From NCBI GenBank assembly GCA_013289835.1, contig JABCZG010000013.1, positions 1 through 64,000 of the forward strand: a stretch of 64,000 nucleotides of DNA. The letters run 5' to 3'. A program made the translations under genes and the position numbers. This stretch comes from Acidobacteriota bacterium. GTDB taxonomy: Bacteria > Acidobacteriota > Terriglobia > Acidiferrales > UBA7541. Positions 49,584-51,463 of the stretch are shown here, in pieces (positions within the stretch are counted from its first letter, which is position 1; each line of letters opens with the position of its first letter). The notes beneath the pieces are model-generated. The model saw nothing but the letters and a program-made list of their open reading frames with translations. It did not search any database and was not told the origin of the DNA.

Positions 49584-50114
49584 ATGGACATCCGCTGTAT
49601 CGTCACCGGCCAAAATGCTTCCGGCAAGTCCGTTTTCGTCCGCGATACGCCCGTAAAGCCTGTGACCCTTGCCTTGTTTTCCGGCTACGAATTCCATCGC
49701 CTCTGGGGAAGCGATGCCGCCCCCGAGCTCCCCGCGGACGGCACCCTGCCGGTGCCACCTCGCTATTTCCCCTCCATTCAAGGTTTCCGCTTCGGCTTCT
49801 TCACCATACCCCCGGACACCACGACGCGCATCGAGCGCCTTAACACCGCTTCTGCCATCGAAGAAATTCACCAAAAGTTGCCCGGCATGCTTGACGTCTT
49901 GGAACGCGATCATCCCGGCATGCACACCACAGACACCGTGGATTTCGACGTGGTGGTCTCCGGCGAAGTAGTTCTCGAATTGGACGGCGGCGCCGAAGTT
50001 CTCCTCAAAGCAGGGGATTGCGTGATCCAGAACGGCACCCGCCACGCCTGGCACAACCGTTCCTCCGCCAACTGCCTCATCGCCGTCACGCTTCTGGGCG
50101 CGCAGCGCAAATAG
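49584..50114 (+). CDS. Cupin-domain protein
   Basis: A 176-residue single cupin. Motif 1 is near HTTDTVDFDVVVSGEVVLEL, and motif 2 near AGDCVIQNGTRHAWHNRSSA, where GTRHAWHN supplies His for a metal. The N-terminal 90 residues are an extra strand region with KPVTLALFSGYEFHRLWGSD. Function unknown; relatives are often annotated as oxygenase or binding proteins. ATG with AAAGGAGC about 6 nt before it. Confidence 0.82.
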   Translation: MDIRCIVTGQNASGKSVFVRDTPVKPVTLALFSGYEFHRLWGSDAAPELPADGTLPVPPRYFPSIQGFRFGFFTIPPDTTTRIERLNTASAIEEIHQKLPGMLDVLERDHPGMHTTDTVDFDVVVSGEVVLELDGGAEVLLKAGDCVIQNGTRHAWHNRSSANCLIAVTLLGAQRK

Positions 50115-50323
50115 AGCCAGAGTCCGGCTTCCAAAGAGGGTGGCCCTATTTTTTCTGGACGATTCCTTCGCTTTGGCGTATTCTGCTCCTGGAAATAACT
50201 GCATTTGGAGTGCGGCAGCCCTGCTGCCGCTTTTTCGTTTTCAGCCTCTGGATCTTCCGAAATAATAGAGGCCCCCACCTCCCCACGCATGGGCAGATTG
50301 ATCGTCTAAATTATGTTAACCAA

Positions 50324-50417
50324 TAAGTGCTTTAAAATGAACACTTGCAGGAGAGCTCGTAAGTGTTGATTTTAAATGGCTTACGGAGTGGGTAAGTCGT
50401 TTAGAATCCGCACTTAC
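50324..50417. repeat. Array of three palindromes built from a GTAAGTG heptamer
   Basis: Three 25-26-bp inverted repeats start at 50324, 50359 and 50392, about 34 bp apart. Each has a GTAAGTG-like arm, a T/A-rich centre such as TTTAAAAT, and a CACTTAC-like arm. That gives six heptamer copies in alternating orientation. The array is AT-richer than its surroundings and lies in the 365-bp gap between convergent genes (cupin and DUF2950 protein). I see no gene in that gap. Function unknown; binding-site array or degenerate mobile element are both possible. Confidence 0.75.
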
Positions 50418-50479
50418 AAAAATAGGGGGGAGGGCCCACTCCTCGCACCCAGGCATTCCTCAACCTCTGACCAAGGACC

Positions 50480-51463
50480 TTAGTTAGCTTTCGCCCCGCC
50501 AGCAGCTTCTTCCATCGGCTCTTCCACCTTATGCCAGCCGGAATTGGGGTTGTAATCCTTCATGGCTTTGGCGAGAGCCTCGGTCTTGGCGCCAAGATCC
50601 TTTTCATAGACCACTCCATCTTGGCCCACCACGAAGGTCATTACGCCAGAGGACCTATACTCCGCCGGATACGCCACGAACGCGAACCCCGCGGTCATCT
50701 TGCCGTTCACGACGTAGCTTTTCGCTCCGCCCGAGGCATTTTTACCCTGACCGGTCAGGATGTGGAAATAGTAGCCGCGATAAGGTGTCGGGGGTCCGTC
50801 CTGGCCCTTGACGTAGCCCTGCGCGACGGCAGCCGCCACAAGGGGCCCGATGGGGCTCTGCGGCTCGCCATCTGCTGCTTTCCAATACAGGCCGTTGTGC
50901 TGTCCCTCATCGCTGAAGATTTTTGCAGCATACCCGCTGTTCTGTGCAGAGTAGTATTCCTTCTCTGCGGCCACCAGCCCTCGGCATATGTGAATGCTCG
51001 ACATCTCATTACGCCCAATTCGTCGGTACAGGATCTCCTTTTTTCCGGCCTCGGTATCGAAATACCAGGCGCTGCCCTTGTGCACCAGCGGGATCGGCGT
51101 GGGCCAATTATGCGCCCCGATATACAGGGTCACCGTTCCGTCCGGTTCTTTCACCAGACGGTGCAGTTCTTCGTATCGCTTCACGAAATTGGCGCGGCTG
51201 TTGGAGTCCTCGGTCTCGTCGCCGGAGTATACAACTTGCTTTCCAGCGGGTCCGAGAATCTCCATCAATGTCTTTTCGTCGTTATTCTGCGCCGCCGTAA
51301 CGAATGCTTTGCTAGCCTCTTCCGGCGACGAAAATGTTTTTTGACCAGGTTGTTGTGCCCGTGCGCCGCCAGCAACACTTCCCGTCAAGAGCAGGGCGAC
51401 CGCGACTAATTTACAAAGGCCAGCCCATTGCGATTTGTCGAAGTTCAGCTTCGTTCGCCGCAT
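50480..51463 (-). CDS. DUF2950 family secreted protein
   Basis: A 327-residue exported protein with signal peptide LCKLVAVALLLTGSVAGGAR. Family marks include FSSPEEASKAFVTAAQNNDE, LMEILGPAGKQVVYSGDETE, and the later YFHILTGQGKNASGGAKSYV. The family has no assigned biochemical role and is often found beside DUF3300, as here. ATG at 51463; the frame is open 18 codons further. Confidence 0.88.
   Translation of the reverse strand: MRRTKLNFDKSQWAGLCKLVAVALLLTGSVAGGARAQQPGQKTFSSPEEASKAFVTAAQNNDEKTLMEILGPAGKQVVYSGDETEDSNSRANFVKRYEELHRLVKEPDGTVTLYIGAHNWPTPIPLVHKGSAWYFDTEAGKKEILYRRIGRNEMSSIHICRGLVAAEKEYYSAQNSGYAAKIFSDEGQHNGLYWKAADGEPQSPIGPLVAAAVAQGYVKGQDGPPTPYRGYYFHILTGQGKNASGGAKSYVVNGKMTAGFAFVAYPAEYRSSGVMTFVVGQDGVVYEKDLGAKTEALAKAMKDYNPNSGWHKVEEPMEEAAGGAKAN

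Follow-up and report, generated by a model that had tools for sequence, protein, structure and literature searches.

Features of the locus

The window, which is the whole 64-kb stretch of DNA that was analysed, contains a convergent gap between a cupin-type ORF (ending at 50114, plus strand) and a DUF2950-like ORF (ending at 50480, minus strand), so that the original prediction was right to place the palindromes between the 3' ends of two genes. All six of the predicted GTAAGTG-like heptamers are present in alternating directions, and they form three palindromes of 26 bp each: unit 1 (R; 50323–50348, plus strand; ATAAGTGCTTTAAAATGAACACTTGC, ATAAGTG...CACTTGC), unit 2 (F; 50359–50384, minus strand; GTAAGTGTTGATTTTAAATGGCTTAC as read on the plus strand, GTAAGTG...GGCTTAC) and unit 3 (R; 50392–50417, plus strand; GTAAGTCGTTTAGAATCCGCACTTAC, GTAAGTC...CACTTAC), the last being the most conserved unit of the family described below. 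The units are not equivalent internally, as units 1 and 3 run in the same direction and unit 2 in the opposite one. The even spacing of about 34 bp that had been claimed was resolved into distances of 36 and 33 bp between unit starts, which are the commonest in the family. When up to three mismatches were allowed, GTAAGTG-N12-CACTTAC was matched only three times in the 64-kb window, each time inside the same 95 bp, and 0.78 matches were expected by chance in the entire window.

The feature is larger than first noted and extends over approximately 50156–50434, the left boundary being approximate. It starts with a −35-like hexamer, TGGACG (50156–50161, plus strand), which is weak here and homologous to the TTGACA/TGGACA of sibling copies, and a −10-like hexamer, TATTCT, placed 17 bp after it by alignment to the sibling copies (50179–50184, plus strand). 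At 50212–50235 (plus strand) there is a hairpin followed by a T-run, GCGGCAGC-CCT-GCTGCCGC. It is a REP-type repeat, independent copies of which were found in the genome when the corresponding stretch of a sibling copy was used as the query. The conserved array module (50311–50434, plus strand; matched by sequence model R1 at 50313–50434, E = 5.7e-26) begins with the left-edge motif TTATGTTAACC (50311–50321, plus strand; TTATGTAAACC in siblings), which could be aligned in a subset of the copies of the same genome. Unit 3 is followed by an A-run (50418–50422, plus strand) and by the G-run GGGGGGAGGG (50425–50434, plus strand; GGGGGAGGGG in the family), which is the right end of the conserved element.

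Copies, hosts and distribution

The palindromes are one copy of a previously undescribed dispersed element. A 131-bp region of the window matched many places in its own genome (itself at 100% and 59 weaker places); the sequence model gave 74 raw matches there, among which opposite-strand duplicates are possible, and at least 30 distinct places at E < 1.3e-21 among the matches listed. With the model, the element was found in 32 of the 36 genomes of the genus, 85 matches being counted in one of them (G006), and not once in a sample of 246 further genomes of the phylum, to which stricter filters were applied than to the genus. In a pattern scan of named genomes the carriers were almost all uncultured Acidobacteria, mostly of subgroup 2, together with a single bin that bears the label Betaproteobacteria, perhaps wrongly. 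The outcome that the original prediction named as refuting it, with arms and spacing unconserved in relatives and at chance frequency genome-wide, was looked for and did not arise.

The whole element measures about 280–330 bp and consists of a sigma70-like promoter, a conserved AGGTAA near the predicted start of transcription, a variable leader, three 26-bp units in the order R-F-R, an A-run and GGGGGAGGGG. The aligned array reads TAAGTCCTTTAGAATCAACACTTAC, about 10 bp, GTAAGTGTTGATTCTAAAGGACTTAC, about 8 bp, TAAGTCCTTTAGAATCAACACTTAC, AAAAAA and GGGGGAGGGG; of 67 copies, 52 have the 36-bp and 58 the 33-bp distance between unit starts, and unit 3 is the least variable of the three. Some copies are truncated or rearranged. 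According to a home-made gene caller, only two of 77 copies overlap a gene, both at the isc site, and the remainder are intergenic; a gene usually follows closely on the right, the one on the left being farther away. The convergent setting of the window copy is atypical for the family, as the right-hand gene is about as often on one strand as on the other.

Single CAACACTTAC-like sites outside the elements occur at background level (61, against 27–168 for shuffled motifs), and an isolated operator beside a regulator gene was rejected on this ground. A phage origin was rejected as well, the end motif having no exact match in viral contigs. Searching Rfam with the window region and 14 carrier loci gave nothing above the gathering score on the element.

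Several local variants were recorded. A palindromic TTATGGTTAACCA, or a near version of it, lies just to the right of the G-run at L043, L053, L059, L073, L075, L080 and L086; there is only one exact copy of TTATGGTTAACCA in the genome of the window, though it stands beside copies in several other genomes. At L063, L066, L072, L076 and L079 the left edge is a TTGCACAATTTTGTGCAA-like palindrome instead of TTATGTAAACC. Four loci of the G022 subfamily (L060, L135, L085 and L044) have a second, diverged unit ending in CTTACAAAAAACATGGGGGAGGGGG about 130 bp to the right of the array, as if two elements had been joined. At the duplicated own-genome loci L133:74-925 and L027, the element covers the end of a proline-rich predicted frame on its 3' side and would supply its C-terminus. 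A fluoride riboswitch (RF01734; L072:2776-2848, minus strand) adjoins one copy, and in the orthologous copy at L006 the gene on the right looks like crcB; an Acido-Lenti-1 RNA (RF01687; L087:2916-2961, minus strand) lies about 3 kb from another copy.

Promoter, leader and array

A consensus-based promoter scan with a threshold score of 7 gave 32 of 72 left flanks with a promoter directed toward the array, compared with 4, 2 and 0 in the three control combinations of strand and side. The promoter is enriched family-wide; about 40 of the 72 copies have a weak match only, including the window copy, whose promoter is degenerate. In many copies AGGTAA or a similar sequence follows soon after the −10 hexamer, with a GC hairpin and its T-run coming next. 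The leader varies in sequence and in length, the promoter lying 49–277 bp from the array; in the own-genome subfamily the leader hairpin is a REP that is also found alone in the genome.

Selection for RNA hairpins should have made variable stem positions covary. No pairing covariation was detected among the own-genome copies (z −0.27 and −0.44 for the two hairpins), and most copies have no base pair at several of the stem positions; RNA hairpins formed by U1:U2 or U2:U3 are thus not supported in this genome. When copies from all genomes were taken together, the U1:U2 pairing score rose above that of shuffles (z 4.3), the value for U2:U3 being z 1.9. The U1:U2 signal follows subfamilies, which combine TGCAAC with GTTGCA or ATCAAC with GTTGAT, and it was attributed to them, but could be real covariation. 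Because the own-genome copies lack pairing covariation, it is probably the DNA that is read rather than RNA hairpins. The small RNA region suggested in the original prediction is supported in part by the conserved promoter directed at the array.

Strand polarity and GC skew

The direction of the element is tied to the GC skew around it, on whichever strand the neighbouring genes lie. With 18-kb flanks (own genome, G022 and the window), 38 of 41 copies lie on the locally C-rich strand; in an overlapping set with short flanks it is 64 of 74 copies (p = 9e-11), which come from 22 genome labels, with one organism partly shared between two of the labels. Along the direction of the element the skew is negative at all distances checked, up to 2.5 kb on both sides, and also in flanking genes of either strand; at the window copy it is −0.12 to −0.14 over 1–10 kb. 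No such rule was found for the direction of the right-hand gene (27 of 71 negative), for GTAG-type REPs (19/15) or for free G-runs, GGGGAGGGG, outside the elements (8/10).

In both genomes checked, the ribosomal L2 genes were found on the G-rich strand, and since the element lies on the C-rich strand, it probably points against fork movement, if skew is read as replication direction from these two ribosomal operons. The surroundings of dnaA show no clear skew switch and were uninformative as an origin marker. In contigs C1 and C2 of G022 (L334-L373 and L314-L319) the sign of the skew switches every 20–60 kb independently of gene strand; adjacent genes have the same sign even when their strands differ, and the pattern is not that of two replichores. 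The likeliest cause would be a history of inversions that carried element and skew together.

Orthologous sites

Presence of the element is patchy between relatives at two sites. In the iscU-iscA gap a full or nearly full copy occurs in five genomes of the genus (G000, G012, G006, G048 and G024) and only a remnant in three (G017, G018 and G046). In all eight carrier species unit 3 has AATGAA instead of AATCAA, which creates an ATG; it opens the iscA frame in most of them, the alignment of G048 leaving the start open. Where the element is missing at isc, the start is mostly an ordinary one, for example ATGGCAACAGAA. Since this ATG within unit 3 reads as an apparent start codon, domestication seems to be visible at iscA; among 67 full copies the AATGAA change occurs in two, both at isc. 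In the dnaG-rpoD gap, array and promoter are present in six genomes; most of both is gone from G011, and further genomes have neither or just traces. Filled and empty versions of the two sites are too diverged for exact junctions to be drawn. For the window copy no direct empty site was found, the DUF2950 orthologues having another neighbour.

Constraint was assessed in seven orthologous sets with core positions defined on 51 other copies. The sets were picked after the family had been discovered, and as the choice of family, sets and thresholds was made along the way, the p-values are descriptive; the comparison assumes that the copies descended in place. In the seven sets the core differs by 5–13% and the non-core by 21–49% (core/non-core: dnaG-rpoD 0.075/0.389; isc 0.130/0.425; the other five 0.048/0.462, 0.089/0.400, 0.054/0.493, 0.089/0.214 and 0.071/0.447). 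Between paralogues the non-core differs by 55% and the core by 9%. The core is thus as constrained between orthologues as between paralogues, and the non-core is closer in orthologues, as expected from common descent. Among the dnaG-rpoD orthologues the differences amount to 0.000 at the −35 hexamer, 0.056 at the −10 hexamer, 0.076 in the AGGTAAA region and 0.296 in the spacer, and the first bases after the −10 hexamer differ by 41%.

Judged from these alignments, core and promoter hexamers have stayed constant at orthologous sites while their neighbours changed, which shows selection in place. A dead insert, which should decay evenly, would not be expected to keep them so, and wholesale gene conversion is an unlikely account, as it would homogenise the interleaved variable positions too.

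Y1 transposases and REPs

Ten Y1-transposase matches were found in the genome of the window, and an element lies within 3 kb of two of these roughly ten regions. The Y1 gene nearest to an element (RAYT-type; L133:1000-1720) has its own, unrelated REPs on both sides, ACAGGCACTCTTGCCTGTGC palindromes, and forms a REPtron of a subgroup 2 acidobacterium. One other Y1 gene is flanked by GCGGCAG REPs. The GCGGCAGC..GCTGCCGC family of REPs surrounds the Y1 gene on contig C11 of G000, where several of its independent copies lie. The GT[AG]G foot (GTAG/GTGG) is absent at the units of the element, which begin with GTAAG/nTAA and have variable spacers after them.

Interpretation

Genus-wide dispersion, fixed direction, key letters unchanged across species and a gene start at one site together speak for a site of protein binding and transcription that is probably maintained, as opposed to chance or dead DNA. 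The reading that we prefer, and to which we give about an even chance, is a once-mobile and now partly domesticated, strand-oriented binding array with a promoter, kept by selection. The palindromes would be the right-hand module of a dispersed intergenic element of about 280–330 bp; the array would be bound as double-stranded DNA by a sequence-specific protein, each unit taking one protein complex. The element may have spread by a non-autonomous mobile process, would now mainly be inherited in place, and may be retained because the bound array, a short transcript or both are useful in one direction relative to replication. Two options of the original prediction, a protein-binding array and remains of a mobile element, are both backed by the evidence, which is fixed spacing, DNA-level conservation in place, dispersion and patchy presence. 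Nothing in the analysis speaks for the centromere-like or silencing site that had also been proposed; strand polarity is a property that such sites can have. It counts against the preferred reading that the analysis turned up neither a binding protein nor a transposase nor a target duplication.

A purely selfish, non-autonomous MITE- or ERIC-like element with strand-specific, replication-coupled insertion, now decaying, whose units are recombinase sites without host function, is the rival that we consider unlikely but take seriously. The copies are dispersed, non-coding, mostly intergenic, patchy at orthologous sites and in part truncated or rearranged, and their strand bias is like that of elements using the lagging-strand template (PMC6006769). 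Dispersion and polarity are covered by this account; selection in place is not, because orthologous copies decay unevenly, with core and promoter hexamers fixed. Nor was a target-site duplication (TSD), an autonomous partner or a clear terminal inverted repeat (TIR) recognised: comparison of the left and right edges by eye, the edges being inexact, gave only a weak C-run/T-run resemblance. A good deal less probable is a family of small-RNA genes, the short RNA starting near AGGTAA and ending at the hairpin and T-run or within the array and G-run. The enriched promoter, its conservation in place together with AGGTAAA, and the GC hairpins with T-runs soon after the start in many copies are what such genes would predict; the variable sequence and length of the leader, an own-genome array without covariation, the lack of an Rfam match and a subfamily hairpin that is a REP occurring alone are not, and DNA-level conservation of the array is left without an account. 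Slightly less credit still is given to a bolder form of the host-function reading, in which each genome would carry dozens of selectively maintained, replication-polar sites, the promoter firing against the fork into the array and GGGGGAGGGG, and the bound array, an RNA:DNA hybrid or a G-quadruplex acting on forks in one direction only.

The remaining explanations fare worse. We hold it to be very improbable that the element is a REP/BIME mobilised by a REP-associated tyrosine transposase (RAYT): the genome does have ten Y1 matches, a few of them within 3 kb of an element, but the Y1 genes examined bear other REPs, the units have no GTAG/GTGG foot, and in G006 there are 85 matches to the element but none to Y1, so that this origin was rejected. 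A bidirectional terminator of a convergent gene pair, suggested by the gap in the window and by the hairpin and T-run at 50212–50235, deserves equally little belief, as the family is not limited to convergent gaps, its direction follows skew and not genes, and the T-run on the other strand of the array precedes the pairing units rather than following them. Chance palindromes can practically be dismissed, given the copy number of the dispersed family, three window matches where 0.78 were expected, the fixed spacing and the conservation of the core in place.

Small dispersed repeats of bacteria are usually taken as decaying selfish DNA. Here, in contrast, different species retain a short, promoter-bearing set of motifs at fixed sites; it has a strict direction relative to strand composition and has provided the apparent start codon of a housekeeping gene. 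If a binding protein were found, the element would offer a tractable case of a mobile repeat turning into a chromosome-wide system of sites in uncultured soil bacteria.

Comparison with known systems

Promoter-bearing and ERIC-like elements are covered by reviews of small bacterial repeats (PMC2229807, PMC10969869), and GTAG/CGTC tags, RAYT classes and acidobacterial transposases flanked by other inverted repeats by surveys of REPs (PMC3733652, PMC6006769). In the literature searched there was no description of this element or of anything of its kind in this soil group. By description, it resembles ERIC/IRU sequences, which are palindromic, intergenic, about 125 bp long, clade-limited, present in tens to hundreds of copies and without a known dedicated transposase; ERIC has short TIRs and a TA-type TSD (PMC2229807), whereas the present element has an alternating three-unit array, a G-run end, a promoter and strand polarity. 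The Correia elements of Neisseria (NEMIS/CREE) are likewise small and dispersed with sigma70-like promoters (PMC10969869), and here such a promoter is present and directed inward toward the array; the 24-bp TIRs, TA target duplication and IHF site of Correia were not recognised.

IS200/IS605-type single-strand transposons and their MITEs share an apparent orientation relative to replication and palindromic end structures (PMC6006769), but the element has no linked Y1 gene, shows evidence of being conserved as DNA sequence rather than as hairpins and is under apparent selection in place. REP/BIME systems with RAYTs are similar in their dispersed intergenic palindromes and inverted pairs, and RAYTs and REPs occur in the same genomes; the element differs in its lack of a GTAG foot, the RAYTs of these genomes have other REPs at their sides, and the REPs show no polarity. 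As in Rickettsia palindromic elements and intragenic MITEs, repeat-derived sequence enters a reading frame, at the iscA start; here, however, this concerns only a start codon and N-terminus at one site, and almost all copies are intergenic.

KOPS and Tus-Ter are polar chromosomal sites with a direction fixed relative to replication-associated skew, and the KOPS consensus of E. coli, GGGNAGGG, lies on the G-rich (leading) strand. The GGGGAGGG of the element fits GGGNAGGG, but its G-run lies on the C-rich strand in 38 of 41 copies, which is the opposite orientation, so that identity with KOPS was rejected; the element is, moreover, composite, about 300 bp long and promoter-bearing.
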